From Deltaproteobacteria bacterium (GTDB lineage Bacteria > Desulfobacterota > Binatia > UBA9968): a stretch of DNA of 32,509 bases. The position numbers and the translations under genes were made by a program. Below, in pieces: positions 669-27,237 of this stretch (the first letter of the stretch is position 1; every line of letters begins with the position of its first letter). The notes beneath the pieces are model-generated. The model did no database searches, was not told the DNA's origin, and worked only from the letters and a program-made list of their open reading frames with translations. Location: positions 1-32,509 of the forward strand of contig JACPSE010000112.1 in assembly GCA_016193465.1 (NCBI GenBank), in the 5' to 3' direction.

Positions 669-693
669 AAAGACCTCCTGCTCATCTAATGCC

Positions 694-1007: not shown

Positions 1008-2417
1008 CTAAAAGTTTTCCTCTGGGATCTTCTCCCAGGGAAGCGCTTGGAGAATATCCTTTAACTGTTTTCTCTCCTTGACCTCATCGGGAACATCCAC
1101 CTTTTTGGCAAATGGCTGGCCCAGCGGCTTGGTGCAGTCAAACCCCACCTTGGCCCCTACCACGCCGGCAGCGCTCGGATCCAGGGCCGGACCCGTCAGG
1201 CCCGGCAGAACCAGCAGATCCCTGTCCCCCTGAAAGCGAGTTGCCAGGGCATGGAGAACTTCCCTTTCATCAAAGATGTCAACATCCTCGTCAAAAACAA
1301 AGGCGTGTTTGATAAGATAATGAGACATTAGACCTGCCACAAGCGCTGCCCGGCTCGATCCCTCAACCGAGTTCTTGATCTGGATGTAGAGATGAAAAAC
1401 GCCGCAACCTGACATCGGCACATAAACACTCTGCACCGTAGGGACCACCCTATGGATTGCCTCAAAAGCCATTCCTTCCCTGGCTACTGACGAAAGCCAG
1501 TGGGTATGGCCCACAGGGATGCTCTCCCAGTACGCCTCTCGCCTGTGGGTTATGGCCGTAACCCTTATAAACGGATTCCACTTTTGCGGTCCTGAGTAGC
1601 GGGTGTATTCCCCGAATGGCCCCTCTGGCTTCCTCTGTCCATGAGGAATGATGCCTTCGATCACCACCTCGGCATCTGCCGGAACCAAGAAATCCTTTCC
1701 CAGTGTCTCAGAGGAGGTCAGGCGCAACGGCTCTCCGATAAAACCTCCGGCAGTCGCATAGTGGCTGTCCCCATATGGAATCGCTGCCTCGCAGCCCAGT
1801 ACAACCAGAGGATGATGGCCAATCCAGTAAGCCGCCTTCATATCCTGCCCTCGTTCCTCATGCTTGGCAAAGATGAGGGCATTGTGGGTGGCGGGCGTCA
1901 TATAGACGCGGATTTCATCTCTCCCCCTGATCCATCCCCGGTGAATGGCGGAATTTTCTATTCCGGTGTCCGGGTCATAGCAGGTGAGAAAGCCGGCGGT
2001 GATATAAGGCCCCGGATCCATCGCATGATGGATCGGCGCAGGAAAGATGTTGAGGTCCACCTCTGCCCCGGTCTTGATTATCTGTTTAACCGGGGCCTTT
2101 TCCTTCGGCGCCACAACCGGCTGAATTCTCTTTTGCAGGCGATCGTTATAAGCATTTCCGATGCGCTGGGGGACCGTGTCTAAAAGAGCGGCGATTCGCC
2201 TTCGACTCGAATGAATAAAAGTGATTAGGTTGAAAGGAAATCTCGTGCCATCACTGCAAACATTATCAAAGATGATGACGGGAAACCTATTTGCCCTCTC
2301 CATCTCGCCGCTAAAGGCGGTGATCTCGTACGCCCGCTCTATCCGTTGCTTGACGCGAACTACCTCCCCAGGAGAAGAGGCTTCATAGGCTTCAAGGAAA
2401 CTTCCCAGGTCCGCCAT
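1008..2417 (-). CDS. UbiD-family prFMN-dependent decarboxylase
   Basis: The product is 469 residues when started at the ATG at 2417-2415 (MADLGSFLEAYEAS). An upstream in-frame ATG at 2549 would add 44 residues but lies upstream of the sigma-54-type promoter at 2462-2477, and its extension is not UbiD-like. R160 (in SAIHRG) and the EGPFGE motif with E265 and E270 match the Arg-Glu-Glu catalytic network of UbiD/Fdc1. The enzyme would catalyse non-oxidative decarboxylation or carboxylation of an unsaturated or aromatic acid using prenylated FMN in the cytoplasm. It is the first gene of a minus-strand operon with a zinc-ribbon protein and a second UbiD. Two different UbiD paralogues in one operon suggest either two successive reactions or a heteromeric enzyme. 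The exact substrate is not readable. Confidence 0.93.
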   Translation of the reverse strand: MADLGSFLEAYEASSPGEVVRVKQRIERAYEITAFSGEMERANRFPVIIFDNVCSDGTRFPFNLITFIHSSRRRIAALLDTVPQRIGNAYNDRLQKRIQPVVAPKEKAPVKQIIKTGAEVDLNIFPAPIHHAMDPGPYITAGFLTCYDPDTGIENSAIHRGWIRGRDEIRVYMTPATHNALIFAKHEERGQDMKAAYWIGHHPLVVLGCEAAIPYGDSHYATAGGFIGEPLRLTSSETLGKDFLVPADAEVVIEGIIPHGQRKPEGPFGEYTRYSGPQKWNPFIRVTAITHRREAYWESIPVGHTHWLSSVAREGMAFEAIHRVVPTVQSVYVPMSGCGVFHLYIQIKNSVEGSSRAALVAGLMSHYLIKHAFVFDEDVDIFDEREVLHALATRFQGDRDLLVLPGLTGPALDPSAAGVVGAKVGFDCTKPLGQPFAKKVDVPDEVKERKQLKDILQALPWEKIPEENF

Positions 2418-2461
2418 TTCATTTTCTCGACGAAGCTCAAATATCGCCTTGGATAAAACGA

Positions 2462-2477
2462 AGCAATAAACGGGCCA
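2462..2477 (-). promoter_or_regulatory. sigma-54-type promoter of the UbiD operon
   Basis: Read on the minus strand the sequence is TGGCCCGTTTATTGCT. It matches the -24/-12 consensus TGGCACG-N4-TTGCW with one change, and the GG and GC pairs are ten bases apart as required. The predicted transcript start near 2451 leaves a leader of about 34 bases before the ATG at 2417, which supports that start codon. Confidence 0.6.
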
Positions 2478-2581
2478 GACTAAGAACGGCCATTTGAGCT
2501 TATCTATCAGCCGTATGCCCGAAGCAAGCACTGAACTTTGATGGCTCATTGCTATCCAACGATTGGGTATTGGCAGTCTCT

Positions 2582-2672: not shown

Positions 2673-2688
2673 TGGCATTTAACTTGCA
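2673..2688 (+). promoter_or_regulatory. sigma-54-type promoter of the aldehyde dehydrogenase/ABC operon
   Basis: TGGCATTTAACTTGCA fits TGGCAYR-N4-TTGCW with one change, with the required ten bases between GG and GC. The predicted start near 2699 gives a 27-base leader holding the GGAG ribosome site at 2716-2719, which is a well-formed arrangement for the ATG at 2726. Confidence 0.65.
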
Positions 2689-2725
2689 CAAATATACTAG
2701 CTAAAACTAATATCTGGAGTTGCTT

Positions 2726-4204
2726 ATGGAAGATTATCGCGACAGGATCCAGGGGCTCCTACAGGGTAAGGAGTCGATGCTGATCAGAGGAGAATGGGCC
2801 AAAAGTCGATCCGGCCAATGCTTGTCGACGGATAACCCGGCCACGGAGGAGAAGCTCTGCGAGGTCTCCCTGGCATCGGAGGAAGATGTCGAGTTGGCCG
2901 TTGACGCCGCTGCCAGAGCTTTTCCTGGATGGCGTCAGGTTGATCCTTTCGAAAGGGCACAGAGAGTTTCAGCCCTGGCCAACGCGCTACGGCAGCATGC
3001 CGAGGATTTTGCCTTGCTTGATGCGATAGACTCCGGCAATCCTCTAACGGCTATGAAGGGGGATGTTCTGATGACCGCCGGGATCATGGACTATTTCGCA
3101 GCGCTTGCCGGCGAGCTTAAAGGACAGATCCTGCCTGGCAAACCCGGGATGCTGCACACTGTTTTCCAAGAGCCTTACGGAGTCGTGGTGCGGATCATTC
3201 CCTTCAATCACCCGATTTTTTTCGCCGCCTGCAAGATCGCGGCGCCGCTTGTTGCCGGCAACACAGTGATCCTCAAGCCCGCCGAGCAGACCCCCCTCTC
3301 CGCTCTGGAGATGGGAAAGTATGTCAAGGAATTTTTTCCTCCTGGAGTGGTGAACATCGTCACCGGCGATGGCCCAATAACCGGGTCTGCTTTGGTGCGG
3401 CATCCCAAGACCAGGCGCATCGCCCTCACCGGCGGAGTAGACACTGGCCGCGCGGTGCTGAAGCTCGCGGCGGAGGGGGGCATCAAAAATGTGACCTTGG
3501 AATTGGGCGGCAAAAACCCCATGATCGTTTTCCCGGACGCGGACATGGAAAAGGCAGTGGAGTCCGCGGTCGTGGGAATGAACTTTCATTGGTGCCAGGG
3601 GCAATCCTGCGGTTCGACCTCGCGCCTCTTCCTCCACAAGAAGATCCACGACGAGTTTCTCGACCGTTTGATTCAGCGCACCGGCCGCATAAGAATCGGT
3701 CTTCCCCTTGATTCCCGGACTGAGATGGGCTGTCTCGTCTCCAAAGATCAGTACGATAAGACCTTCCGATATATTGAACTGGGTAAAAAAGAGGGGGCTA
3801 AGCTGGTAGCCGGCGGTTCCAGGCCAGAGGGTGAGATCTTTTCAAAGGGGTACTTTGTCAAGCCCACGATCTTCGATCGCGTGGAGATGTCCATGCGCAT
3901 TGCCCGCGAGGAGATCTTTGGCCCGGTGCTTTCCGTTCTTGTCTGGGAGGACTATGAAGAGGTCGTCGAGAAGGCCAATAGCGTTGACTACGGACTCACC
4001 GCCAGCGTCTGGAGCCGAGACCTCCGGCTGGCCTATCAAACAGCGGAACGCTTGGAGGCAGGATATCTGTGGATCAACGGTTCGAGCCGCCATTTTCTGG
4101 GTGTGCCCTTTGGCGGGTTCAAGCAAAGCGGGATTGGCCGCGAGGAATCCGTCGAAGAGCTCTTAAGTTATACTCAGGTGAAGGCGGTGAATACGGCCCT
4201 TTAG
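2726..4204 (+). CDS. NAD(P)-dependent aldehyde dehydrogenase
   Basis: The 492-residue product oxidises an aldehyde to its carboxylate with NAD(P). The start ATG at 2726 has GGAG six bases upstream; a TTG two codons earlier is less likely. Family landmarks are the NPATEE motif near residue 37, the catalytic-site Asn N161 in PFNHP, the general-base Glu E259 in LELGGK and the nucleophile Cys C295 in GQSCGS. The length is normal for the betaine aldehyde/hydroxymuconic semialdehyde branch. It is the first gene behind a sigma-54-type promoter and is followed 51 bases later by an ABC importer, so its aldehyde may derive from the imported compound. The substrate is unknown. A second paralogue lies at 13438. 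Confidence 0.93.
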   Translation: MEDYRDRIQGLLQGKESMLIRGEWAKSRSGQCLSTDNPATEEKLCEVSLASEEDVELAVDAAARAFPGWRQVDPFERAQRVSALANALRQHAEDFALLDAIDSGNPLTAMKGDVLMTAGIMDYFAALAGELKGQILPGKPGMLHTVFQEPYGVVVRIIPFNHPIFFAACKIAAPLVAGNTVILKPAEQTPLSALEMGKYVKEFFPPGVVNIVTGDGPITGSALVRHPKTRRIALTGGVDTGRAVLKLAAEGGIKNVTLELGGKNPMIVFPDADMEKAVESAVVGMNFHWCQGQSCGSTSRLFLHKKIHDEFLDRLIQRTGRIRIGLPLDSRTEMGCLVSKDQYDKTFRYIELGKKEGAKLVAGGSRPEGEIFSKGYFVKPTIFDRVEMSMRIAREEIFGPVLSVLVWEDYEEVVEKANSVDYGLTASVWSRDLRLAYQTAERLEAGYLWINGSSRHFLGVPFGGFKQSGIGREESVEELLSYTQVKAVNTAL

Positions 4205-7788: not shown

Positions 7789-7804
7789 TGGCATATATCT
7801 TGCT
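7789..7804 (+). promoter_or_regulatory. sigma-54-type promoter of the nitrogenase-like operon
   Basis: TGGCATATATCTTGCT is a full match to TGGCAYR-N4-TTGCW with ten bases between GG and GC. The predicted transcript start near 7815 is only about three bases before the ATG at 7818, so the message would be nearly leaderless; no Shine-Dalgarno sequence is visible before that ATG. Confidence 0.65.
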
Positions 7805-7817
7805 GCCCCGACTTGTT

Positions 7818-9341
7818 ATGTCGAAACTCAAATCGAAAGGTTATCGTTGGCTTCCTCTCAGGGAGGCATGGGAGTCGCTCCCTGAGATCGATACTGCCGA
7901 GTTTAATGAACTCTCTCCTGGCTACGAAGGAGTCTGGTGCCGTTACCTTTGGACCACCACCTACTTCCAGCAATTCTTTCGTGACGTGGTCGTTGTCACG
8001 CATGGCCCGCTTTCGTGTGTTGCGGCCGTAAAGAACTTTAAGCAGACCCATTACTCTCTTCACTCGGCCCTTCCTTTTGCCCATTCCCCTTGCAGCAACA
8101 TGGATGAGAATGCCGTCATCATGGGGGGAACCGACATTTTGGCCGATACCTTGAGGCGGGTGGACCGGGAGTACCGTCCTAAGCTCATTATCATTACGGA
8201 TACGTGCGCCTCGTACATGATTCACGATGACGTCGACGCGGTGATTGTAGAGATTACCCCTGAGGTCGACGCAAAAATCGTTTATACCCCAAGCCCAGGC
8301 TTCGCCGGGGTACAGTGCGGCAAGGCGGTGGAGGCGATGGGTCCCTTGGTGGCCTCGCTTATGGATCCGCCCGGCGAAGTCGACCCAGAGGGGGTCAACG
8401 TGCTGGGCCTCTACTATGATACCCGCTTCACAGAAGCTGAGGGACGGAAGCACGGGGGCAACACTGAAGCTTATCGCCATTTGATCGAGGGTATCGGCCT
8501 CAAACTCCACCGGATTATGAACGCGGGTGACCACGATTATCTGCGCACTGCCCCAAATGCCCGGGTCAATGCAATTCATACCGCCATGTGGGGCTATCCG
8601 GTGGCGCGGGCGATGGAGGAACAATTCGGCACTCCTTGGCTCAAAAGGCAACTCCCTATGGGACTTGACGGAATCCGGGCCTGGGTCATGGAGTTGGCTG
8701 AGTTCATGGGCCGGGAAGAAGAAGCAGAGAAGTTTGTCCGATCCGAGGAGGACAAGCTCACTTCCCTGTTTGAAGAGACCAAGAAATGGGTAGAGGGAAA
8801 ATTCCTTCTCGTGGAATGTTCCAGAAATTCTCAGGCAAAGTATGGGGAGATGGTCGCTTACGCTCGTCTTGGCGAAGAGCTAGGGATGAAGCCTTATGTC
8901 TATAGCCTCCATCCCATGGAGTTTAAGTCCCAGACGGATGATCTGTTCGCCGTTGCTGACGTGGAGGGTTTTAACCCACCGGTTTTGGTCGGCCCCTATC
9001 CATACCACGAACCAGTCAACGTAGAAGACGTGATGGCGGATCTCGGAGTGGATCAGGATCAATGTCTCTATATTTACGACGATGTATTCCCATATGCCAA
9101 GAGCGGTAGCTTCGACCCATGTAATGTCCCCCGTTACACGACCTCGTCACAGATGAAGCGTGTCAAGGGATCATCCTTTCTCGGAGTGGGCTATGCCGGC
9201 ACGGCAGCCACCTATCGAGGGTTTATAGAAGCCGTGAAGGTATCACGGCGAAAATCGAGCCCAACCTTCTATGGCCGGGTATGGTCCTCCACCCCATTTG
9301 AATTCCAGTTCGCCAGCCAAAAGGAGAGAACCGCCTCATGA
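7818..9341 (+). CDS. nitrogenase component 1-type oxidoreductase, NifD-like subunit
   Basis: The 507-residue protein aligns by eye with NifD. Cysteines C41 (GVWC), C67 (GPLSC) and C130 (TDTC) sit where NifD has C62, C88 and C154, with the same 26-residue first spacing, and would bind an Fe-S cluster at the subunit interface. The FeMo-cofactor ligands are gone: in the segment NAIHTAMWGYPVARAMEEQF the position of C275 is T255, and near GVGYAG the position of H442 is L455. So it is not an N2-fixing enzyme but a DPOR/COR/CfbD-type reductase with an open active site. The ATG at 7818 is chosen; a TTG at 7800 falls inside the promoter. It overlaps the NifK-like gene by four bases. The substrate is unknown. 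Confidence 0.9.
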   Translation: MSKLKSKGYRWLPLREAWESLPEIDTAEFNELSPGYEGVWCRYLWTTTYFQQFFRDVVVVTHGPLSCVAAVKNFKQTHYSLHSALPFAHSPCSNMDENAVIMGGTDILADTLRRVDREYRPKLIIITDTCASYMIHDDVDAVIVEITPEVDAKIVYTPSPGFAGVQCGKAVEAMGPLVASLMDPPGEVDPEGVNVLGLYYDTRFTEAEGRKHGGNTEAYRHLIEGIGLKLHRIMNAGDHDYLRTAPNARVNAIHTAMWGYPVARAMEEQFGTPWLKRQLPMGLDGIRAWVMELAEFMGREEEAEKFVRSEEDKLTSLFEETKKWVEGKFLLVECSRNSQAKYGEMVAYARLGEELGMKPYVYSLHPMEFKSQTDDLFAVADVEGFNPPVLVGPYPYHEPVNVEDVMADLGVDQDQCLYIYDDVFPYAKSGSFDPCNVPRYTTSSQMKRVKGSSFLGVGYAGTAATYRGFIEAVKVSRRKSSPTFYGRVWSSTPFEFQFASQKERTAS

Positions 9342-10723
9342 TGGAAGTTGTTCCGCTCGCAAGCGACACAAAAATGCGCGACCAGTTTCAACCGGGAGCA
9401 TTTATCGGCTCCATCTTCATCACCAGCGGTATTCTCGACACGGTCAATGTGTATCACGGCGTCTCAGGCTGCAATGCCATGGCGCAGCATTTCCGCGGCG
9501 ACCTGGTGCCTAACGGGGGTTATGTCCCAATTGTCGCAACCGGGTTTTTGGAGACCGAGGCGATCATGGGAGGGGCCACCAAACTGGAGAAGACCCTCAG
9601 AGACATAGTGGATGGCAAGTTAGGGAGAAAGCTGCCCCAATGTATCTGGATCTCCATGAGCGACTGCCCGGCTATAGGCGGGGAAGATATTGAAGGCGTA
9701 GCGCGGGGAATCGCGGCAGAAACAGGAACAAGAATCGTCGCCATCGAAAATGCCGGATTCAAGGGAGGGTTGGCGCGCGGGGCGGAGCTGGCCCTGTGCA
9801 AGATCCTCGATGAGGTGGTCGAACCCTACGACGGGAAGCGGCAAGGGATCAACATGATTGCCCCCTTTCTGATGGGAAGCGCCAATTGGCCTTTTGACAT
9901 CGATCACATGGTGGAACTCCTGCAAGCAGCGGGTGTGAAGGTTAATCTCGTCCTCTCACGCAACATGTCGTTTTCCGATCTGCAGCGTTTCCCCGCCGCC
10001 GAGGCTAACCTGCTCCTCACCTATGACGAGATGCCGGACTTCCAAAAGAGGAGCGAGTCTCTCGGTGTGCCCACCATAACGGATGACCCGGTATTGCCCT
10101 ATGGGATCGGTAATACCGAAAAATGGCTCCTTAATCTCGCGGAGCGTTTTGGCGACGCAGAGAAGGCGAAGCGCTATTTGGTCGAAGCGATGGGCGATGT
10201 GAAGAGAATCCTCTACCGCAACTTCAATTTTAGCTGGATGGCAAGCTTCCTGAGCGACAAATACGCGGCGGTTTGCGGCTATGCCCCCTTTGCCGTGGCC
10301 ATGACCCGCTACCTCTTCCACGACCTCAATATCAGGGTCAAGGTCGTAGGCTTGTGGAGCGAGACCGAGGCCGGGCTCAAGAAAGGCGTGAGCCTGCTGG
10401 AGCCTCTTGGAGATTCGCTGGACTTTACCGTTTTGGAAAATCCTACTTACTTCCAGTTGGGCGAGGCAGTCAAAGAGGCGAAGGTCGACTTCGTCATCGG
10501 CTCCATGCAGGATAAACCCCTTTTCAAGGGTCTCGGCGCGGCCCATCTGAATCTGGCTGGCTTCTACTACTTTAATAACTACAACTTCGTGCCCTGGCCT
10601 TTAGTGGGAGTCAAAGGCTCGCTCAGACTCTTCTCTGAGATCTCCAGGGTGGTGGAGGATGCTTTCTATGAGAGCGAGGCGTGGAAGAAACTAGCCTTTA
10701 TTCCGGGAGACGGAAGGGTTTGA
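9338..10723 (+). CDS. nitrogenase component 1-type oxidoreductase, NifK-like subunit
   Basis: The 461-residue product is the partner of the preceding NifD-like subunit; the ATG overlaps that stop codon (ATGATG) and GGAG lies upstream. C45 (GVSGC) and C110 (MSDC) match NifK C95 and C153. The NifK C70 position (CQPLGA) appears as FQPGAF here, so that ligand is missing. With three cysteines from the partner, five of the six P-cluster ligands remain, which favours a [4Fe-4S]-type cluster over the 8Fe P-cluster. The protein has no membrane or export signal. The heterotetramer would receive electrons from the tandem NifH-like protein encoded at 11597. A CoA-thioester dehydrogenase gene follows after seven bases. 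Confidence 0.9.
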   Translation: MMEVVPLASDTKMRDQFQPGAFIGSIFITSGILDTVNVYHGVSGCNAMAQHFRGDLVPNGGYVPIVATGFLETEAIMGGATKLEKTLRDIVDGKLGRKLPQCIWISMSDCPAIGGEDIEGVARGIAAETGTRIVAIENAGFKGGLARGAELALCKILDEVVEPYDGKRQGINMIAPFLMGSANWPFDIDHMVELLQAAGVKVNLVLSRNMSFSDLQRFPAAEANLLLTYDEMPDFQKRSESLGVPTITDDPVLPYGIGNTEKWLLNLAERFGDAEKAKRYLVEAMGDVKRILYRNFNFSWMASFLSDKYAAVCGYAPFAVAMTRYLFHDLNIRVKVVGLWSETEAGLKKGVSLLEPLGDSLDFTVLENPTYFQLGEAVKEAKVDFVIGSMQDKPLFKGLGAAHLNLAGFYYFNNYNFVPWPLVGVKGSLRLFSEISRVVEDAFYESEAWKKLAFIPGDGRV

Positions 10724-10730
10724 GCAGGAT

Positions 10731-11597
10731 ATGGAAAAGGTTGGCATTATCGGCAGCGGACTCATGGGCACTGGAATCGCCTTTGTGGTGGCGCGGCAGA
10801 TAGAAGGCGAGACCGTAGTCGTCGACGTGGATGAAAAGATCCTGGAGAAGAGCCGGCGCACGGTGGAAGGCCTTGCCGCTCGCGCGGTGGAGAAAGGCCA
10901 GGCCACGCAGGAGGAGGCCGGAAAATGGCTCAAGCGGCTCAACCACACGACCGACAGAAGCGACCTCAAGGGCGCCGCGTTCATCATTGAGGCGGTGCCC
11001 GAAGATCTGGCGCTCAAGTGCCGGCTTTTTACGGAACTCAGCGAAATCTGCGCGCAGGAAACCATCCTCGCCAGCAATACCAGTGGACTTCCAATAACCC
11101 AGATAGCCGCGGGCGCGCGCCATCCTGAGCGGGTTATCGGCACCCACTTTTTCAATCCCGCCCCGGTGATGAAACTGGTGGAGATCGTGCGTGGCTACGC
11201 CACCAGCGAAACAACCATCCAAAAGACGAGAGGGTTTTGTTCTCGCCTGGGAAAAGAGTCCATCCTCGTGGAGAAAGACTACCCAGGCTTCATTACCACG
11301 CGAATCGGGAACGGTTACCTGGCAGAGGCCCTGCGCTGCCTTGAAGAAGGCGTGGGCTCAGCCGGAGATATCGACAAGGGTTGTCGGCTAGCCTACAACT
11401 ACCCCATGGGGCCGTTTGAGCTGATGGATCTGGTCGGCCTGGATACGGTCTTACGGGTCTTCGAATCTCTCCATCAGGTGTACGGAGAGAGATTTCGCCC
11501 CTCCCCCCTGCTCCGTCAGATGGTGTCTGCAGGTCGGCTGGGCAGGAAATCCGGCTCAGGCTTCTACAATTACGCTAAAAAGGAGAAAGGCGCCTGA
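10731..11597 (+). CDS. 3-hydroxyacyl-CoA dehydrogenase family protein inside the nitrogenase-like operon
   Basis: The 288-residue protein has the NAD-binding motif GSGLMGTG (residues 8-15), E87 in the IEAVPE motif, S118 (SNTSG), H139 (THFFNP) and E151, matching the substrate and catalytic residues of 3-hydroxybutyryl-CoA dehydrogenase; the 21-residue Ser-His and 12-residue His-Glu spacings are conserved. The usual Asn of the PGF-x-x-NR motif is Thr (PGFITTR, about residue 190), so the substrate may differ. It would oxidise a 3-hydroxyacyl-CoA with NAD, or act in reverse. It lies seven bases after the NifK-like gene and shares one base with the tandem NifH-like gene, so it is firmly part of the operon. 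This ties the reductase to CoA-thioester chemistry. Confidence 0.9.
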   Translation: MEKVGIIGSGLMGTGIAFVVARQIEGETVVVDVDEKILEKSRRTVEGLAARAVEKGQATQEEAGKWLKRLNHTTDRSDLKGAAFIIEAVPEDLALKCRLFTELSEICAQETILASNTSGLPITQIAAGARHPERVIGTHFFNPAPVMKLVEIVRGYATSETTIQKTRGFCSRLGKESILVEKDYPGFITTRIGNGYLAEALRCLEEGVGSAGDIDKGCRLAYNYPMGPFELMDLVGLDTVLRVFESLHQVYGERFRPSPLLRQMVSAGRLGRKSGSGFYNYAKKEKGA

Positions 11598-13351
11598 TGG
11601 AACAGCCGAGTCGTCAACGTTATCTCATTGTCTATGGCAAGGGGGGTATCGGAAAGACTTCAGTAGCAACCAATCTCGGTGAGGCGCTTGCCCACGAGCA
11701 AGGGCGAAAGGTCATGCTTGTTGGCTGTTCGCCCAAGACCAGTCTCATTGACCTTTACGACCTCACCGGCAACGTCCTCCCCATCCTCGATCTGAAGCGC
11801 AAAGAAGGGGTCAGCGGCCAAAATATCGGCAAGGCGGTATGGCATAGTCCCGAAGGAATTATTTTAACGGAGACCGGCGGACCGGAGCCGGGCATCGGCT
11901 GTGCCGGCGTGGGTTTGCCAACCGCTTTTGGCGAGATAAAGAAATACAAAGGACAGATCGAAGACTTCGATAAGGTGGAGTACAGCATTTATGACCTCAT
12001 TGGTGATGTGGTCTGCGGCGGATTTTCCACTCCGCTGCGCGGCGGGGGGCGAGAGGTGCTCATTATCATCAGCGGTGAGTTGATGGCCATCTACGCCGGC
12101 AACAATATCCTCAGGGCAGTGAAGGCGGTGGGCGGCGACCTGAGGGTTTTGGGATACGTTGTCAACATGCGCGGCGTCCATCGCGAGCAAGAAATCGTTG
12201 ACGCCTTTGCCGCCAGAACGGGAGTGCCCATTCTGGCCTCTATCAAACGGGATCCCATCACTTTCAAAGAGGCCGAGCGGCTCGGCGGACCCGTGGTCCG
12301 CACCGTTTCTGACTCAGAGATCGCCGCCACGTTTCGCGAGCTCGCGCAAAAGGTGGAGCAAGGTCCACCCAAGACGGATCCCCGTCCCATCGACAGCTAT
12401 GATGATCTGTTCCATATGTTCCTAAGTTTTCAGAGCCTCCAGGAAGAGGCGGGAAAAGAGGGGCGGAAAGCCTACAAAAGCAACATCCCGACCAAGCCTG
12501 TAGAACGGGAAAAGTCGCTCAGGATCTCCGTCTATGGGACAGGCGGCATCGGCAAATCGACTGTCTCCGCCAATGTGAGCGCCGCTCTGGTACTGATGGG
12601 AGAAAAGGTCTTTCAGATCGGCTGCGACCCGAAACATGATTCCATTGCCAATCTCTGCGGCGGGCTGAAGCCCACGATCTTGGACGAGATTCAAAAGCGG
12701 GGAGGCGCGCGGGCCATGAACCGCGAGATCCTCAAGCAGTTGATTTTCCCCGGCGTCAACCACAACAGCCATCTCTTTGGGAGTGAGTGCGGCGGCCCGG
12801 TGCCCGGCAAGGGGTGCGCGGGAAAGGGCGTGGATCTGGCCTTAAAGCTGTTTGAAGATCACGGGATCATGGAGGAGTATCAGTTCACGCTTATCCTCTA
12901 CGACGTCCTGGGAGACACTGTCTGCGGCGGATTTGCCCGTCCGTTGAAGTACACCCCGCAGGCTTACATTGTCGCCAACGGGGAGGCGGCCTCTCTGACT
13001 CAGGCAATGAAGATCGCTCAGAGCATCCAGGCGGCAGGCCGGCGTGGTGTGGACGTCGGCATTGGCGGGGTCATCAACAACATGCGCGGCGTTCCACATG
13101 AAGAGGCGATAGTGGAGGAGGCCTTTGGCGCGGTCGGTGTCCCGGTCATCCATCATATTCCCCGCTCCGAGTTGGTCCAGACGGCGGAAAACTTGAGAAC
13201 CACGGTGGTGGAGTCCTTTCCAGAGTCCGAGCAGGCGCAACGCTATATAGAGCTGGCTCGAAAGCTGCGCGAGAACACGCAACGGCACTCCCTCACCCGC
13301 GACGTTCTTTCAAGCCGGGAGATTGTGGCGATTGTGAATAAATACACTTAA
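11597..13351 (+). CDS. tandem NifH-like reductase: two nitrogenase iron-protein domains in one chain
   Basis: The 584-residue protein contains two full NifH-like ATPase domains (about 8-255 and 307-565) joined by a charged 50-residue linker. Each has a P-loop (GKGGIGKTS at 14-22; GTGGIGKST at 314-322), two cluster cysteines (C102 and C140; C407 and C443) and the DxxGD switch (D133/D137; D436/D440). NifH, BchL, BchX and CfbC normally form homodimers holding one [4Fe-4S] cluster, so this chain could fold into a one-chain pseudo-dimer. The halves are unequal: the first keeps the signature Lys (K15) but has CSPK where D39 should be, while the second keeps CDPK (D344, D348) but has T315 at the signature Lys. 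The ADP-ribosylation Arg100 is V105 and K410. It should pass electrons to the NifDK-like pair at the cost of ATP. Confidence 0.92.
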   Translation: MEQPSRQRYLIVYGKGGIGKTSVATNLGEALAHEQGRKVMLVGCSPKTSLIDLYDLTGNVLPILDLKRKEGVSGQNIGKAVWHSPEGIILTETGGPEPGIGCAGVGLPTAFGEIKKYKGQIEDFDKVEYSIYDLIGDVVCGGFSTPLRGGGREVLIIISGELMAIYAGNNILRAVKAVGGDLRVLGYVVNMRGVHREQEIVDAFAARTGVPILASIKRDPITFKEAERLGGPVVRTVSDSEIAATFRELAQKVEQGPPKTDPRPIDSYDDLFHMFLSFQSLQEEAGKEGRKAYKSNIPTKPVEREKSLRISVYGTGGIGKSTVSANVSAALVLMGEKVFQIGCDPKHDSIANLCGGLKPTILDEIQKRGGARAMNREILKQLIFPGVNHNSHLFGSECGGPVPGKGCAGKGVDLALKLFEDHGIMEEYQFTLILYDVLGDTVCGGFARPLKYTPQAYIVANGEAASLTQAMKIAQSIQAAGRRGVDVGIGGVINNMRGVPHEEAIVEEAFGAVGVPVIHHIPRSELVQTAENLRTTVVESFPESEQAQRYIELARKLRENTQRHSLTRDVLSSREIVAIVNKYT

Positions 13352-13437: not shown

Positions 13438-14901
13438 ATGGAGCCGGCAAAAAAAGTTGCAGGCGAGAGAAAAGAGCTTTTCATTGATGGCCAGTGGGTG
13501 AAACCCGCTACCGGCCAATACTTCACGCCGATCAACCCGGCAACGGAGGAGGGCATTACAGAGGTGCCCTTGGCGGGCGAGCGGGAAACGGATCTGGCGG
13601 TCACGGCGGCCCGGCGGGCCTTCGAAGAGGGACCCTGGTCCACGATAAAACCGCTGGAGCGGGGCAAGAAAATCTTCCGCATCGCCGAGGTCATGGAACA
13701 GCAGGCAGAGGAGCTGAGCCTGATCGAAAGCCTGGATACGGGAAAACCGCTTTCCTTTACCCGCACGCGAGACGTGCCGTTTGCAATTGATCTACTGCGT
13801 TATTACGCCGGCTGGGCCAACAAGGTTTACGGAACGACCCTTCCTACAGATGAAACCGCTCTTGCCTGCACCGTGAGAGAGCCGGTCGGTGTGGTGGCTA
13901 TCATCACTCCCTGGAACTCTCCTCTCATTCTCTCTTTGATGAAGATCGCACCCGCCCTGGCGATGGGTAACACGCTTATCCACAAGCCGGCCAGTTGGAC
14001 TCCGCTTTCGGCCCTGAAGTTTGCCGAGATCTGTCAGGCAGCGGAGTTGCCGGAAGGTGTCTACAATGTGATCACTGGTCCGGGCGATACAGTGGGAACC
14101 CGGCTGGTCACCCATTCTGACGTAAACAAAGTCTCCTTTACCGGCGAGACCGTGACCGGCAAGGTGATCATGGAAAAGGCCGCCGGGACGCTCAAACGGG
14201 TCTCCTTAGAGCTGGGCGGCAAGTCTCCCCACATCGTCTTCGCCGATGGGGATTTGGAGGCGGCAGCCACCTTTGCCGCCAAAGGGTTCTGTCTAAACCA
14301 GGGCCAGATCTGCTGGGCCGGCTCGCGCCTATTCGTGGATGAAAAGGTTCACGAGCAGTTCCTTGACAAGCTTCTCCGCCATGTCCGGGAAGACTGGACC
14401 GTGGGAGATCCTATGGACGCGAACACGCGCGTCGGGCCATTGATCTCTCGCTCTCACCTCCAGCAGGTTCTCGGCTACATCGAAGACGGGAAAAAAGAGG
14501 GGGCGAAACTGATTTTGGGCGGCGACCGTCCTCCCATGAAGAAAGGTTACTATTTAAATCCGACGGTCTTTGATCAGGTGGACAATCGCATGAAGATCGC
14601 CCGGGAAGAGATCTTTGGACCGGTCCTGGCCGTGATCCCTTTTAAAGAATTCGGTGAAGTTATAGAGAAAGCGAATGATAGCTTCTACGGCCTGGCCGCC
14701 GGCATCTGGACCAAGGACATGAAAAAGGGCTACCAGGCGGCCCGGCGCCTCAAGGCAGGAAGCGTTTGGATCAACTGTTACGGCGCCCTGGATATTATGG
14801 CGCCGTTTGGAGGTTTTAAGCAAAGCGGCTTCGGCCGCGAATTCGGCCAGGAGGTGCTTCCTCTCTTTACCGAGACGAAAACGGTATGGTTCCAGATGTA
14901 A
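13438..14901 (+). CDS. NAD(P)-dependent aldehyde dehydrogenase (second paralogue)
   Basis: The 487-residue enzyme has the motif NPATEE (33-38), catalytic-site N160 (PWNSP), K183 (HKPAS), general base E258 (LELGGK) and nucleophile C292 (GQICWAG), all in normal spacing for the betaine/hydroxymuconic semialdehyde dehydrogenase group. The ATG is preceded by AGGGGAG six bases away. It follows the nitrogenase-like operon after an 86-base repeat-rich gap and may or may not be cotranscribed. It shares layout and motifs with the protein encoded at 2726 but is clearly a separate paralogue. The aldehyde substrate cannot be told. Confidence 0.93.
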   Translation: MEPAKKVAGERKELFIDGQWVKPATGQYFTPINPATEEGITEVPLAGERETDLAVTAARRAFEEGPWSTIKPLERGKKIFRIAEVMEQQAEELSLIESLDTGKPLSFTRTRDVPFAIDLLRYYAGWANKVYGTTLPTDETALACTVREPVGVVAIITPWNSPLILSLMKIAPALAMGNTLIHKPASWTPLSALKFAEICQAAELPEGVYNVITGPGDTVGTRLVTHSDVNKVSFTGETVTGKVIMEKAAGTLKRVSLELGGKSPHIVFADGDLEAAATFAAKGFCLNQGQICWAGSRLFVDEKVHEQFLDKLLRHVREDWTVGDPMDANTRVGPLISRSHLQQVLGYIEDGKKEGAKLILGGDRPPMKKGYYLNPTVFDQVDNRMKIAREEIFGPVLAVIPFKEFGEVIEKANDSFYGLAAGIWTKDMKKGYQAARRLKAGSVWINCYGALDIMAPFGGFKQSGFGREFGQEVLPLFTETKTVWFQM

Positions 14902-15012: not shown

Positions 15013-16365
15013 ATGATCCGACCCGTTTACAGCCAAAGGGCCATGAAAAGCCCCTATTGGAACGAGGCATTGGAGACGATGCCCCGGCAAGAGCTAGATG
15101 CCCTGCATCTCAGGCGGCTACAGTCGCTCATCAAATACGCCTACCAGAATATCCCGATGTACCGGGAAATTTATGATGAAGCTGGCGTCCGACCTGAAGA
15201 GATCCGCACCCTGGACGATTACGTTGAAAAACTCCCCGCTATCGACAAACAGCATGTGCTGAAATACCAGCTCCAGGCAAAAGCGGCAGTTCCTGGAGCC
15301 GAGGAGTACATCTCCTTTCTCTACCAAACTTCCGGAACCACGGGGAAGCCCCTTATGGAGCCAGGACACTTCCCGGACATCATCAACATGTGGACCTACC
15401 AATGGTGGGCACATGGAATCCGGCCTCGGGATGTTTTTTACTTCGCCTTTCCCTTCGGGACTTTCATGGCTTTCTGGTCCGCCTATTTCGACGCCCATCT
15501 TTTGGGGGCTCAGGTAATCAGCGGCGGCGGCGTGGACAGCAAAGCGCGCATTTATCAGATCCAACAGTTCCGCCCCACGGTGCTGATCTCCACCCCAACC
15601 TACGCCTTAAGGCTGGCAGAAGTGGCGACGGAAATGGGGGCCGATAGTCGCGCCACTTCCATTCGGTTCATCAGCACTGCCGGAGAGCCCGGCTCCATGG
15701 TGCCTGGACTCCGAAGGGCCATGGAGCAGGCCTGGAATGCCAAGGCAATCGATCTCTACGGCATCTCCGAGCTATGGGGCTCTACCAGTTGGGAATGCCC
15801 CCTGCATACAGACCGGATGCATCTCGGTGAAAGCACTGCTCATGGCATCGTGGTGGATGACAAGGGGAGGCTTGTGCCGAACGGTGGAAAAGGGGAGTTT
15901 GTCCTTACCAACTATGAGGCGACCATCCAGCCTCTCATCAAGTACCGCACTCACGATGTGGTGGAATGGCACAAGGAGCCCTGCGACTGCGGCCGGAGTT
16001 GGCTCTGGCTGAGGGGAGGCGTCCTGGCGCGCACCGATCAGATGGTGACGATCAAAGGAACCAACGTTTATCCCACCTCGGTTCAAGCGTTGCTTGGAGA
16101 GGTCAAAGGACTATCAGAACGAATGGAGATTCATATTGACCGGGAGGAGGGAAACGGCGTCTTTGATCGAGTCTGTGTAAAGGTCGAACCTTCTCCTGAG
16201 GTAGACGCCGGGAAATGTTCCGCGCTCAAGGTCGAAGCCGAGGGGCTGCTGCGGGCAAGAGTCGGTGTGAGTATTCCGGTCGAGGTCGTGCCCCCCATGA
16301 GCCTGCCACGCTATGAGTTGAAAGCGAAGCTAGTCTTCGACCACCGCTCAAAGGGGGTCGGCTAA
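15013..16365 (+). CDS. phenylacetate-CoA ligase-family acyl-CoA synthetase (PaaK-like)
   Basis: The 450-residue protein is an adenylate-forming ligase: an acid plus ATP and CoA gives an acyl-CoA, AMP and pyrophosphate. The P-loop-like motif YQTSGTTGKP (about residues 109-118), the motif YGISELWG near 250, IKYRTHDVV near 312 and the carboxy-terminal RYELK with its lysine near residue 440 match PaaK-type ligases; length and order are normal. No strong ribosome site precedes the ATG. The ferredoxin subunit gene of the Mo oxidoreductase begins one base after its stop, so substrate activation and that oxidoreductase are probably coexpressed. The acid is likely aromatic, but this is family inference only. 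Confidence 0.88.
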   Translation: MIRPVYSQRAMKSPYWNEALETMPRQELDALHLRRLQSLIKYAYQNIPMYREIYDEAGVRPEEIRTLDDYVEKLPAIDKQHVLKYQLQAKAAVPGAEEYISFLYQTSGTTGKPLMEPGHFPDIINMWTYQWWAHGIRPRDVFYFAFPFGTFMAFWSAYFDAHLLGAQVISGGGVDSKARIYQIQQFRPTVLISTPTYALRLAEVATEMGADSRATSIRFISTAGEPGSMVPGLRRAMEQAWNAKAIDLYGISELWGSTSWECPLHTDRMHLGESTAHGIVVDDKGRLVPNGGKGEFVLTNYEATIQPLIKYRTHDVVEWHKEPCDCGRSWLWLRGGVLARTDQMVTIKGTNVYPTSVQALLGEVKGLSERMEIHIDREEGNGVFDRVCVKVEPSPEVDAGKCSALKVEAEGLLRARVGVSIPVEVVPPMSLPRYELKAKLVFDHRSKGVG

Positions 16366-16366
16366 A

Positions 16367-17212
16367 TTGAATAGAAAAGAGCGAGAAGCGGTGCTGCAAG
16401 ATCTGGCCACGATTCGGAAGCTCGCCGGCAAGCTCCGAGAGCGCTCTGGAATCCCGGTTGTCGAAAGCTGCGCCAGATGGTGTGAGACCTATACCCAGGT
16501 AGCCCAATGGTCTCTTGGCGAGGGGGAGCGCTTTGAATTCATGCCCGCTCAGGAGGAGACAGCGATGGAAACAAATAAAAAGACGGTCGCCGGCAAAAAC
16601 GGCCGGCCTCCCAGGTGGGGGATGGTGATAGATCTAAAGCGCTGCATTGGCTGTCAAAGCTGCACGATAGCTTGTAAGGTAGAGAACGGCACTCCCCCCG
16701 GCATCTTCTGGATGAGGGTCTTGGAGAAGGAGGAGGGGAAATATCCTCTAGCGCGCAAGCTCTTTTTGCCTGTCCGCTGCAATCATTGCAGCGATCCGCC
16801 CTGTGTCCCCGTCTGTCCGACAGGGGCAAGCTATAAGCGAGAAAAAGACAACCTCGTGTTGATCAATCAGGATAAATGCATCGGCTGTCGCGCCTGTATT
16901 GTAGCCTGCCCGTACCAGGTTCGTTTCCTTGCGGAAGACTCCAACGGATACTACGGTGAAGAGCTCACTCCCTACGAGGCCAAAAGCTACCAGAAATGGC
17001 AGCCCCGGACCGTGCAAAAGTGCACCTTCTGTGTCGACCGAATTGACGGCGGCTTGGAGCCCGCGTGTGTTCAGACCTGCCCGACCAGGGCGCTGGTCTT
17101 CGGCGATCTTAATGATCCAGAGAGTGAGCTGTCCAAGCTCGTGAGAGAGAGATCCCACTTTCAGCCGCGCGCTGAACTGGGGACGGATCCCTCTCTCTAC
17201 TATGTCACGTAA
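16367..17212 (+). CDS. four-cluster ferredoxin subunit of a molybdopterin oxidoreductase (DmsB/PsrB-like)
   Basis: Sixteen cysteines in four groups (CIGCQSCTIAC starting at C93, then CNHCSDPPCVPVC, CIGCRACIVAC and CTFC...CVQTC) would bind four [4Fe-4S] clusters and pass electrons between the catalytic and membrane subunits. The frame is open from a TTG at 16367, one base after the ligase stop, giving 281 residues. An ATG at 16565 with AGGAG six bases upstream would give 215 residues, starting METNKKTV, and fits the family length better. The 66 extra codons look coding and include C35 and C39, so either the subunit has an extra amino-terminal segment or translation starts twice. The NrfD-like and catalytic subunit genes follow. 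Confidence 0.88.
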   Translation: MNRKEREAVLQDLATIRKLAGKLRERSGIPVVESCARWCETYTQVAQWSLGEGERFEFMPAQEETAMETNKKTVAGKNGRPPRWGMVIDLKRCIGCQSCTIACKVENGTPPGIFWMRVLEKEEGKYPLARKLFLPVRCNHCSDPPCVPVCPTGASYKREKDNLVLINQDKCIGCRACIVACPYQVRFLAEDSNGYYGEELTPYEAKSYQKWQPRTVQKCTFCVDRIDGGLEPACVQTCPTRALVFGDLNDPESELSKLVRERSHFQPRAELGTDPSLYYVT

Positions 17213-17306: not shown

Positions 17307-18164
17307 ATGATGCATGAGTTCAACATGGAGCTGAGCAGCCAAGAGGAGTGGTCTTGGCTTGTGGCGATCGACCTATTTCTCGGCGGCCTGGGTGGAGGCC
17401 TTTTCCTGCTCTTTCAAAATCTTGACCTCCCACCTGTTACTGGCCTTTTGTCCCTCGGGCTGGTGATCCTTGGAGGCCTGGTCCTGTTAGCCGAGTTAGG
17501 ACATCCCTTGAGGGCGTGGCGCGCCCTGGCGAGGCCGCAGACCTCCTGGATTAGCCGGGGGATGATCTCTGTTTTTGTCTTTATCATTGCCGGGCTTCTC
17601 TATATTGCCCCATCGTTTTCTGTTTTCTCTTGGTTGCCGTGGAGCCCCACCAGTTCGGGCGGGAGGGCCCTCGGGGTCGTTGCGGGAATCTGCGCCTTCC
17701 TAGTTACTCTTTATCCGGGTTTTGTCCTTTCCGCCTCGCCCTCTATACCCTTCTGGAACAGCCCGCTGTTGCCGGTGCTATTTTTCTCCCAATCCCTTCT
17801 AGGGGCAAGCGGCTTAGTGCTTTTGCTTTCTCCATTCGGGTTTGACGGCCAGGCTCTTCAGGGCTTTTTCTCCCTGGCGGCGCTTCTCATAGTAGCCAAT
17901 TTCATCTTGATGACGATTCATCTTTGGACTTTGAAGCGCTCAGGACTTGCAGCCCGGGAAGCGGTAAGTCTTTTCAATCGCGGTTCGTTTGGCTGGACCT
18001 TCAGGGCTGGAGTCGTTCTGATAGGAATGATTCTTCCCTTCATAGTAGTAGTATGGGTTCCATCCGCGGTGGTGTTAGCCGGCGCTTTCATTCTCGTCGG
18101 CAGCCTCCTGTTCCGCTACTGCGTGTTGAAGGCCGGGGTCTATGTTCCCTTTGCCTTAATATGA
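17307..18164 (+). CDS. NrfD/PsrC-like membrane subunit
   Basis: The 285-residue protein is mostly hydrophobic, with about eight membrane segments, and carries the ELGHPLRAWRALARPQTSW motif near residues 70-90 that is typical of NrfD/PsrC quinone-interacting subunits. It would anchor the ferredoxin and molybdopterin subunits at the membrane and exchange electrons with quinone. The start could be either ATG of the pair at 17307/17310. The ribosome site is weak. This arrangement of subunits resembles polysulfide, thiosulfate and phenylacetyl-CoA oxidoreductases (PsrABC, PadBCD). Confidence 0.85.
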   Translation: MMHEFNMELSSQEEWSWLVAIDLFLGGLGGGLFLLFQNLDLPPVTGLLSLGLVILGGLVLLAELGHPLRAWRALARPQTSWISRGMISVFVFIIAGLLYIAPSFSVFSWLPWSPTSSGGRALGVVAGICAFLVTLYPGFVLSASPSIPFWNSPLLPVLFFSQSLLGASGLVLLLSPFGFDGQALQGFFSLAALLIVANFILMTIHLWTLKRSGLAAREAVSLFNRGSFGWTFRAGVVLIGMILPFIVVVWVPSAVVLAGAFILVGSLLFRYCVLKAGVYVPFALI

Positions 18165-18170
18165 GCGGCG

Positions 18171-18506
18171 ATGGCGCAGCCAAACCAGGAAGAGAACTTC
18201 ATGGAAGAGGGCAACGTAGCCATCATTAACGTCAAGTTCATGGGCGATCTGCGGGCTCTGCTCCAGCAGAGGGCCATCACGCTTGCTTTGCCTCCGGGAA
18301 GCACCGTGGGAGACCTCTTCGCATCGCTCTGCAACAGCTATGGTGAACCCTTCACCAGCCGGGTCTTCAGCGGCTCAGGAGCGCTCCAACACTATATTCT
18401 TGTTTTCCTAGACGGTCAGAATATTAAAGAGCTGGGTGGCCTGGGGGCAAGGCTGGGAAATGGCGAGGTAGAGATCGTCATGCTCCCCATGTTTGAAGGA
18501 GGATAA
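18171..18506 (+). CDS. MoaD/ThiS-family sulfur-carrier protein
   Basis: The 111-residue product (101 if started at the ATG at 18201, which has an AGGAAGAG sequence before it) has the beta-grasp pattern (VKFMGDLRALL, LALPPGSTVGDLFASL, ILVFLDGQNI) and ends in Gly-Gly (MFEGG), the thiocarboxylation site of MoaD and ThiS. MoaD supplies sulfur for the dithiolene of molybdopterin. The gene stands between the NrfD-like and the catalytic subunit genes and ends two bases before the latter, so it may be a dedicated cofactor-synthesis partner. No other molybdopterin synthesis gene is present in the window. Confidence 0.85.
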   Translation: MAQPNQEENFMEEGNVAIINVKFMGDLRALLQQRAITLALPPGSTVGDLFASLCNSYGEPFTSRVFSGSGALQHYILVFLDGQNIKELGGLGARLGNGEVEIVMLPMFEGG

Positions 18507-18508
18507 CT

Positions 18509-21031
18509 ATGGCCTCAAAATGGGTTCCGACAGCCTGCGGCATGTGTTACGTGGGATGCGGCATTCGGGTTCTAGTGGAAGATGGCGTAGCGGTAAGCAT
18601 CGAGGGCGATCCGAATAACCCGCAGAATCAGGGGGTGATGTGCGCCAAGGGGAAGGCTGGGATCATGAACCTCTATAACCCGCATCGGATCAAGGTGCCC
18701 CTCAAGCGCACCAACCCGAAAAGGGGACTCCACGAAGATCCCGGCTGGAAAGAGATCTCGTGGGACGAAGCGCTAACCACGATAGCAGCGAAGCTCGACG
18801 GTATCCGCGACGACCCCAAGAAACTCTACGTCCAGGCGTGGGAGGTAACAGGTGATTGTTTCTATTGGCTATTAGCCTTGGGCAGCGCCTTCGGCACTCC
18901 CCATCTCATGGGGAATGCCTCGGCCACGTGCGGCAAGGTGATCCATCCGGTGGAGTTTTTCTCCGGCGGTGGTTTTCATCAGCAACCCGACCTCCATTAT
19001 TGCAACTACTGTATTTTGATAGGAACCCAATTTGGCCTTGGAGCCAGGGGCGCCTTCAACCACATTACCCTGGACATGGCTGAGGCCCGCGCGCGCGGCA
19101 TGAAAGTCGTGGTCATTGACCCGGTGGGCTCTTACGCCGCCAGCAAGGCTAATGAATGGATCCCTATCCGGCCGGGAACTGACACGGCCTTTGCATTGAG
19201 CATGCTCCACGTTCTTTTGAACGAGCTAGGAATTTACGACGCCAGGTTCCTCAAACACAAAACCAACGCCCCCTATCTGGTCGGATCCAACGGCCGATAC
19301 ATCCGAGAGCCCGGCTCTGGCAAGCCATTGGTCTTCGATGCGACAGACCAAAGGGTCAAAACCCACGACGATCCAACTGCCAGTGATCCAGCGATCACTG
19401 GAGCCGGCGAAGGTGGACGTCCGGCCTTTGAGCTCCTTAGGGAACATGTCGCTAAATATCCGCCCGAGAAGACCGAAGAGATCACTACCATCCCTGCCGC
19501 AACTCTCAGACGGCTGGCACAGGAATTCGGCGAGGCGGCCAGCGTGGGCGCTACCATGACGATTGATGGTGTGACGCTCCCCTATCGGCCCGCATGCGTT
19601 GATTGGGCCAAAGGGCCGCAGGGCCACAAGCACGGCTTTCACCAGTCCTGGCCTCTCAAGCTTCTGAATATAGTAATGGGAGCCGTCAATGTTCCTGGAG
19701 GAATCCTGAGCACGGCGGCGGCGGGCAAAAGACCGCACCGCTGGTGGCCTGAAGGGGGCACTGACGGCCTGCTGGAAGAAGGGGGACACGTATTACCCCT
19801 GCCCCACCCCAAGGCTTTTCCCGGCCGCACTCCAACCAAACCCTTTCGCATGGATCTCGCGGAGCTTTTCCCCCTGGCCCCGCATTTTCACACTCTGTTG
19901 CCCATCACATGCCAGGATCGGGAGCGCTACGGCCTTTCTTATGGAATTGAAATGATGCTCCACGCCCCCACCAACTCTCTTCTCGGCTCCTTTGGCGATC
20001 TTAAGATGGTGGAGAGCTTCTACCAATCGATACCTTTCATCGCCGGCTTCGCGGTGGAAATCAACGAGACAAACCTCTTCGACGATATCGTCCTTCCCTT
20101 TCCCAGCTATCTGGAGCGGTCCGATTTTGTGGCCGGGACCAACCTGCTTATCCCGCACTGCGGCAAAGACGACTGGCTCTGGCAGATAAGACAGTCTGTG
20201 GTGGAGCCCCCGGCCGGGATGAGACAGCCCCAGGAGGTCATCATGGAGATCGCCGATAGGTTGGGCCTCCTGGGCGATTTCTACCGCCTCCTCAACCACG
20301 CTTTCCGGCTCAAAGAGCCCTATGCTTTACAGCCAGGCCAGCGCTACCCCATCACCGAGGTCATAGACCGGATGGCTCGCTCCTGGTTTGGCGAGGAGCA
20401 TGACTTGGGGTGGTTCCGAGAGCACGGCGTGATCCGAATCCCTAGAGACGTGGAGGAAGCCTATATAGGCCCCTTCCTCGAGGCCAGACTCCCTATCTAT
20501 CTCGAGCATTTTCTCCAGCGCGGGGAGGAGCTGAAAGAGGTGATCAGCCAGATGGGGCTGGAGTGGGATCTCTCGGACTATAGGCCACTTTCTGACTGGA
20601 TGCCCTGCCCTTCATACAACGCGATTCGGAACGGGAGATACGACCTGATCGCGGTCCACTACAAACTGCCTTATGTTTACGGCAGCTTCGGCAACGAAAA
20701 CCCCTGGATCAATGAAATCTGCGAGCGCACGCCTTACGCCTATAATGTCCTCGTCAACGAAGACGTGGCCAAAGCGAAGGGGATTAGCGATGGTGACGAG
20801 GTGTGGCTGGAATCACCGGCAACTAAGGTGCGGGCGAAGGCCAAGCTTACCCAGTGCATTCACCCCCAGGTGGTGGGCGTGGCGGGCCACTTCGGTCATT
20901 GGTCACCAGGCATGCCCATTGCTCGGGGAAAGGGGATAAATTTCAATTCCCTCTTACCTACGGACCTTGAGCACATCGACAAGATCTCCACGGCCCTGGA
21001 TCATTGCGTCGAGGTGAGGCTGTATAAATGA
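18509..21031 (+). CDS. molybdopterin oxidoreductase catalytic subunit (DMSO reductase superfamily)
   Basis: The 840-residue protein opens with a [4Fe-4S] site (C10, C13, C17 and C45) followed by a bis-molybdopterin-guanine-dinucleotide fold. C141 in the motif NASATCGK is the likely Mo or W ligand. The carboxy-terminal part, with GDEVWLESPATKV, is the usual cofactor-binding beta-barrel. There is no twin-arginine signal, so the active site should face the cytoplasm. AGGAGG stands six bases before the ATG. Together with the upstream ferredoxin and NrfD-like subunits it forms a membrane oxidoreductase. The subunit composition and the CoA-ligase neighbour recall phenylacetyl-CoA:acceptor oxidoreductase (PadBCD), but the substrate is not proven; thiosulfate or polysulfide reductase is an alternative. 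Confidence 0.9.
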   Translation: MASKWVPTACGMCYVGCGIRVLVEDGVAVSIEGDPNNPQNQGVMCAKGKAGIMNLYNPHRIKVPLKRTNPKRGLHEDPGWKEISWDEALTTIAAKLDGIRDDPKKLYVQAWEVTGDCFYWLLALGSAFGTPHLMGNASATCGKVIHPVEFFSGGGFHQQPDLHYCNYCILIGTQFGLGARGAFNHITLDMAEARARGMKVVVIDPVGSYAASKANEWIPIRPGTDTAFALSMLHVLLNELGIYDARFLKHKTNAPYLVGSNGRYIREPGSGKPLVFDATDQRVKTHDDPTASDPAITGAGEGGRPAFELLREHVAKYPPEKTEEITTIPAATLRRLAQEFGEAASVGATMTIDGVTLPYRPACVDWAKGPQGHKHGFHQSWPLKLLNIVMGAVNVPGGILSTAAAGKRPHRWWPEGGTDGLLEEGGHVLPLPHPKAFPGRTPTKPFRMDLAELFPLAPHFHTLLPITCQDRERYGLSYGIEMMLHAPTNSLLGSFGDLKMVESFYQSIPFIAGFAVEINETNLFDDIVLPFPSYLERSDFVAGTNLLIPHCGKDDWLWQIRQSVVEPPAGMRQPQEVIMEIADRLGLLGDFYRLLNHAFRLKEPYALQPGQRYPITEVIDRMARSWFGEEHDLGWFREHGVIRIPRDVEEAYIGPFLEARLPIYLEHFLQRGEELKEVISQMGLEWDLSDYRPLSDWMPCPSYNAIRNGRYDLIAVHYKLPYVYGSFGNENPWINEICERTPYAYNVLVNEDVAKAKGISDGDEVWLESPATKVRAKAKLTQCIHPQVVGVAGHFGHWSPGMPIARGKGINFNSLLPTDLEHIDKISTALDHCVEVRLYK

Positions 21032-27233: not shown

Positions 27234-27237
27234 GACC

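Follow-up and report, generated by a model that had tools for sequence, protein, structure and literature searches.

A predicted nitrogenase-type reductase of a new deep clade encoded with genes of coenzyme A-thioester catabolism in a Deltaproteobacteria bacterium

The 32,509-nucleotide stretch of DNA analyzed here (hereafter the window; contig JACPSE010000112.1 of assembly GCA_016193465.1, from a Deltaproteobacteria bacterium of the Binatia lineage) carries four tightly coupled genes on the forward strand at positions 7818-13351. The first two encode a NifD-like subunit (D; 7818-9341, 507 aa; PF00148, E = 5e-49) and a NifK-like subunit (K; 9338-10723, 461 aa; PF00148, E = 1.7e-48), and these are followed by a 3-hydroxyacyl-coenzyme A (CoA) dehydrogenase (HADH; 10731-11597, 288 aa; PF02737 and PF00725) and a tandem NifH (HH; 11597-13351) that comprises two PF00142 copies (E = 5e-125) in halves of about residues 1-300 and 301-584. 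D and K overlap by 4 bases, K and HADH are separated by 7 bases, and HADH and HH overlap by 1 base. The coordinates, spacing, and Pfam domains agree with the four-gene operon, with 1-4 base overlaps or 7-base spacing, that had been described in a first-pass annotation made from the sequence alone. The PF00148 subunits and PF00142 Fe protein place the system in the nitrogenase superfamily, and the operon genes (PF00148, PF02737, and PF00142) do not belong to the BcrABCD or BamB families of class I and II benzoyl-CoA reductases. D and K are members of the nitrogenase component 1 family that score far below every named equivalog cut-off in Pfam and NCBIfam, with the best match being to NifE (89 bits vs. 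505). HADH carries Thr-Thr-Arg at the position of the active-site Asn (gene at 10731-11597), where many 3-hydroxyacyl-CoA dehydrogenases carry Val-Asn-Arg, and this suggests an altered specificity.

A sigma-54 (-24/-12) promoter (TGGCATATATCTTGCT; 7789-7804, forward strand) precedes the D start by 29 bp. The motif, TGGCAT-N5-TTGC, was identified 29-33 bp ahead of D in all four genomes that encode D, whereas the surrounding DNA is divergent. An alternative D start, TTG at 7800, is considered inferior to ATG at 7818 because its codon overlaps this conserved promoter. The sigma-54 pattern was detected twice in the window against 0.08 occurrences expected, with the other copy located ahead of an aldehyde dehydrogenase gene, and 41 times genome-wide against 11 for a reversed control; RpoN is encoded in the genome. 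In each of the four genomes, only about 14-18 bases separate the D start from the -12 element (7789-7820 in the window), and the D mRNA may be nearly leaderless.

Phylogenetic reconstruction placed D and K each in a long-stemmed, deep clade of its own, nearest to a VnfE/VnfN-type pair (support of 98/96 for D and 85/85 for K, the latter not decisive). The stem leading to these clades measures 1.7-2.2 changes per site, and such long branches limit what can be concluded from the trees. Approximately unbiased (AU) tests rejected a position within the MarDK subclade for both D (P = 1.5e-4) and K (P = 1.7e-5) and a position with Nif/Vnf D for D (P = 1.4e-5). Membership in the wider Mar-like group was weakly rejected for D (P = 0.028) and, as a sister, was not rejected for K (P = 0.11). 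Bch proteins were placed outside by a quick tree in which support was weak and branches were long, and Bch hidden Markov model (HMM) scores were far below cut-off (64.6 for D and 75 for K vs. 490 for BchB). The trees left out Isr, Nfa, and CfbD sequences; D reached 35 bits against the TIGR03282 cut-off of 268.4, and D and K are both present, whereas CfbCD has a single D-type subunit. The D/K pair is thus outside the described clades in which the first-pass annotation had allowed that it might fall: outside Mar by the AU test, outside Bch by the quick tree, and outside CfbD only by HMM score and the presence of a K partner. The VnfE/VnfN-type pairs themselves, which adjoin vnfDK in Nostoc sp. 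C057 and genome G160 (L032, 17893-21157; L053, 1904-4746), branch outside of NifDKEN and next to the Mar-like group. D and K thus form a new deep clade and a new member of the nitrogenase-like family, and with HH they are predicted to make up a two-component reductase of the nitrogenase type.

Residue comparisons bear on the cluster that this enzyme would use. The interface Cys residues of D (41, 67, and 130) are all kept. In K, the counterpart of NifK Cys95 is Cys45 and that of NifK Cys70 is lost; Cys110 either matches the Cys153 position or is offset from it by a single residue, according to which alignment is used. The Cys that anchors the iron-molybdenum cofactor (FeMo-co) or [Fe8S9C] cluster is Thr in all four D homologs; it is Cys in every aligned Nif, NifE, Vnf, VnfE, and Mar-like sequence and is not Cys in BchN and BchY. 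NifB was not found in the window's own genome, the only one in which it was sought, and no other PF00148 (NifD/K/E/N) protein is encoded there. By the NifD Cys275 and His442 ligands and the presence of NifE, NifN, and NifB, the system does not classify as a nitrogenase (Nif/Vnf/Anf). The loss of the anchor Cys, together with the lack of NifB and NifDKEN in the genome, makes a carbide cluster very unlikely and points to an enzyme that, like dark-operative protochlorophyllide reductase (DPOR) and chlorophyllide oxidoreductase (COR), would use a [4Fe-4S] cluster and bind an organic substrate. The ligand pattern of this group V (three D-side Cys and one K-side ligand, with no FeMo-co site) is present, although D and K do not fall in the Bch clade or score as Bch by HMM. 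A structure model of D aligns best with BchB (Z = 27.9) and MarD (Z = 27.3). The best-supported mechanism would therefore be of the DPOR/COR type, with a putative [4Fe-4S] relay and an organic substrate in the D pocket.

A sister relationship between the N and C halves of HH was rejected (AU P = 0.017). Genome G171 carries two separate NifH genes side by side; the C half clusters with the second of these (99/97) and the N half, less firmly, with the first (84/84). Thr is substituted for the signature Lys10 in the C half and Ser for both Asp39 and Asp43 in the N half, in each case in all four genomes. In NifH/MinD-type ATPases, the signature Lys of each half acts in trans, on the nucleotide bound by the other. 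If this applies to HH, one composite ATP site would be intact and the other would lack both partners, since the losses in the two halves are complementary. No description of a fused NifH pair was found in the literature. If HH is a natural fusion in which a single ATP site is intact, it would provide a direct test of how two ATP sites share one electron transfer. A structure model of HH had a mean predicted local distance difference test (pLDDT) score of 48.8, and no inference was drawn from it. The G171 locus (L056, contig C27, 6129-10969) comprises a basal Mar-like D-K pair followed by the two NifH genes, with NifB above cut-off nearby and with PreA-like, agmatinase, nitrilase, and AOR genes in its vicinity; this nitrogenase-like system possibly acts on a nitrogenous compound.

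Full-length homologs of D at 84-87% identity were identified in four of 148 genomes of the class, all from one family (25 genomes sampled) and each from a different genus, while 395 genomes of the phylum yielded just distant relatives (best 31% identity). Named records that encode D are Deltaproteobacteria metagenome-assembled genomes from groundwater and the subsurface, which we take to belong to the Binatia group, and a scan of named genomes recovered D in just three close relatives. The host of the window is a soil or groundwater bacterium. The order D-K-HADH-HH is kept in all four genomes, i.e., the window and three other genera of the family. An ortholog of HADH (71-77% identity) was detected in exactly the four D-bearing genomes among the 25, with the next best paralog at 51%. 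Ratios of nonsynonymous to synonymous substitution (dN/dS; NG86 method, three genomes) were 0.02-0.16 for D, K, HADH, HH, the aldehyde dehydrogenase that follows HH, and a downstream PaaK-type ligase, with dS near or beyond saturation. This points to purifying selection on these genes, and the shared gene order does not merely reflect recent descent.

Downstream of HH, on the forward strand, are genes for an aldehyde dehydrogenase (ALDH2; 13438-14901), also the next gene in genomes G006 and G010, a PaaK-type acyl/aryl-CoA ligase (PaaK1; 15013-16365), a ferredoxin-like 4Fe-4S electron-transfer subunit (16367-17212), an NrfD-type membrane subunit (17307-18164), a small MoaD/SAMP1-like protein (18171-18506), an 840-aa molybdoenzyme (or tungsten enzyme) of the dimethyl sulfoxide reductase family (18509-21031), and a second PaaK-type ligase (PaaK2; 24407-25822) that is 84-87% identical in G006 and G010. 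NCBIfam matches of the MoaD/SAMP1-like protein are below cut-off (SAMP1, 40.8 bits; MoaD, 34.1 bits), and its position between the NrfD and molybdoenzyme genes is conserved in G006 and G010. A three-subunit molybdenum hydroxylase of the xanthine-oxidase family follows (25825-29553), with flavin adenine dinucleotide (FAD; 25825-26736), 2Fe2S (26733-27233), and Mo (27184-29553) subunits. The Mo subunit is closest to the alpha subunit of 4-hydroxybenzoyl-CoA reductase (HCR), with 544 bits to PDB 1rm6 and 286 to the next family, and scores 770.6 bits against TIGR03194 (cut-off 994.55). The window ends with an amidohydrolase-2 (PF04909) protein (29558-30406), an acyl-CoA dehydrogenase (ACAD; 30482-31594), and an enoyl-CoA hydratase (ECH; 31597-32376), all kept in G006. 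This right flank (ALDH2, MoaD-like protein, molybdoenzyme, PaaK2, and HCR-like enzyme) is mostly kept to the reach of each contig; G010 lacks the ferredoxin-like and NrfD genes, and PaaK1 is present at this place only in the window, being missing from G006 and G010.

The left flanks of the four genomes differ, except for a UbiD-family decarboxylase gene that is cut by the window edge (3-749, reverse strand) and is 78% identical to one in G008, divergent from D in both. A second UbiD-family gene (1008-2549, reverse strand) matches TIGR00148 at 264 bits, above cut-off. The second sigma-54 site (TGGCATTTAACTTGCA; 2673-2688, forward strand) precedes a unit comprising another aldehyde dehydrogenase (ALDH1; 2720-4204, forward strand) and a SsuABC/NMT1-type ATP-binding cassette (ABC) transporter, which ends 282 bp upstream of D. 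All of the flanking genes to which the first-pass annotation drew attention (two aldehyde dehydrogenases, PaaK-type ligases, UbiD enzymes, and Mo oxidoreductases) were located in the window, and its proposed link to CoA-thioester genes is borne out in that the homologs keep HADH, ALDH, PaaK, the HCR-like enzyme, ACAD, and ECH.

The link of the operon to CoA-thioester catabolism is thus supported by operon structure, conservation, and co-occurrence, and the PaaK ligases, HCR-like hydroxylase, ACAD, ECH, HADH, and UbiD point to the degradation, in CoA-bound form, of a probably aromatic compound (an aromatic or heteroaromatic acid). The absence of Bcr/Bam benzoyl-CoA reductase genes, which had been offered as an argument for a reductive role, holds in the window and fails genome-wide, since BcrABCD-like genes (below equivalog cut-offs) are present elsewhere in the same genome; we therefore rejected it as support. 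At one such locus (L092, contig C90, 5293-13670), genes for tandem BcrA/BcrD-like subunits adjoin a fragment that resembles BcrB, along with ferredoxin oxidoreductase genes of the Por/Kor type, and cytochrome oxidase genes are on the same contig. At another (L119, contig 115, 4180-17852), a 16-base sigma-54 site identical to that of D precedes a run encoding BcrC-like, BcrB-like, CoA-transferase, ACAD, HADH, short-chain dehydrogenase, PaaK, thiolase, and UbiD proteins. This identity suggests that both operons may be part of one anaerobic program for aromatic or alicyclic acyl-CoA.

We propose that a reductase acting on a CoA ester is plausible, and that it may function as follows. HH, as a single-chain Fe protein, would take electrons from ferredoxin and bind and hydrolyze ATP, and electrons would pass one at a time via a [4Fe-4S] cluster held by D Cys41, Cys67, and Cys130 and K Cys45, and perhaps also Cys110. 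Neither FeMo-co nor an [Fe8S9C] cluster would be involved; as in DPOR, an organic substrate would bind in the D pocket adjoining the cluster, and a conjugated or aromatic C=C bond would be reduced. The likeliest substrate would be an unsaturated or (hetero)aromatic acyl-CoA produced by a flanking PaaK-type ligase, with ECH, the dedicated HADH, and ACAD carrying the product through steps like those of beta-oxidation. In this scheme the cluster type, electron flow, CoA-ester substrate, and reaction direction are all putative. We assign a probability of roughly 50% to the proposal as a whole, i.e., a nitrogenase-type reductase of a new clade that uses [4Fe-4S] and most likely an unsaturated or (hetero)aromatic acyl-CoA.

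Several observations weigh against this proposal. No CoA-binding residue was identified, and pathway neighbors can act before or after a reductase without sharing its substrate. All four D-bearing genomes are from one family, which limits the depth at which the linkage is supported, and most of ALDH2 is lost in G008 (L015, 3770-4028), where only its first and last parts remain through deletion or misassembly. The FAD subunit of the HCR-like enzyme has only five Cys, and the model of the HCR beta subunit matches it in two pieces around its middle; because this split falls where the 4Fe-4S insertion should be, the chemistry of the enzyme is uncertain. Finally, since BcrABCD-like genes are encoded in the genome, benzoyl-CoA itself does not call for a nitrogenase-like enzyme, and the more likely target is another ring or else a later double bond.

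It is possible, if rather unlikely, that the substrate is not a CoA ester but a free heteroaromatic acid, sulfonate, thioether, or C-N compound, with C-S or C-N cleavage or ring reduction preceding CoA ligation. Methylthio-alkane reductase (Mar) and isethionate reductase (Isr), the two functionally known group IV enzymes, both use organosulfur compounds (PMC12552129, PMC11423573), and Mar-like pairs in Desulfobacterota are often located beside cysteine synthase and transporters such as the one that ends upstream of D. However, the other genomes do not keep this transporter ahead of D, and the 4.5-Mb genome shows an unusual expansion of NMT1-family binding proteins (82 matches), which makes a nearby copy uninformative and led us to reject it as a clue to sulfonates. 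Moreover, Mar requires [Fe8S9C] and MarB, both missing here, and in each of the four genomes HADH forms part of the operon. A biosynthetic reductase for a tetrapyrrole-like cofactor or pigment, comparable to DPOR, COR, or CfbCD, would account for cluster ligands that resemble DPOR/COR rather than Mar or nitrogenase and for the D model matching BchB best, in a tie with MarD. It is improbable given that no tetrapyrrole gene is near the operon in any of the four genomes, that the patchy distribution (4 of 25 in the family) and sigma-54 promoter fit a conditional catabolic pathway, and that Binatota reportedly lack BchXYZ (PMC8262859). That D/K is a metallocluster scaffold like VnfEN, its nearest relative, rather than an enzyme is highly improbable, since the operon includes a metabolic enzyme and such a scaffold operates in cells that also make a nitrogenase and NifB, neither of which this genome encodes.

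Among known systems, VnfE/VnfN (Nostoc sp. C057 plasmid p057_H; genome G160) are nearest by both BLAST and phylogeny (27-30% identity for D and 25-27% for K); they form a scaffold pair beside vnfDGK in which VnfE keeps the cofactor Cys that D has lost. MarHDK likewise combines a heteromeric D/K of similar fold with an Fe protein, whereas D lacks the equivalent of MarD Cys270. IsrHDK keeps only one of the three D-side Cys (PMC11423573), all of which are kept in D. DPOR and COR (BchNB/BchL and BchYZ/BchX) share with D/K the three D-side Cys, the loss of the K Cys70 equivalent, and the lack of the FeMo-co Cys, but their Fe protein is a homodimer rather than a fused heterodimer. To our knowledge, the substrates of the nitrogenase-like enzymes described so far are N2, tetrapyrroles, nickel sirohydrochlorin, thioethers, or isethionate, and a link to acyl-CoA catabolism, if true, would widen the known chemistry of the nitrogenase fold. 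Our literature searches turned up no paper that links benzoyl-CoA reductase or dearomatization to nitrogenase-like enzymes. Class I benzoyl-CoA reductase (BcrABCD) belongs to other protein families (PF01869 and HgdD-type), yet the enzyme described here would similarly carry out an ATP-driven, low-potential reduction adjoining PaaK-type ligases. We tentatively raise the possibility that it represents a third solution to ATP-driven (hetero)aromatic acyl-CoA reduction, one that would combine a nitrogenase fold without its cofactor and an asymmetric, single-chain Fe protein with one of two composite ATP sites intact.

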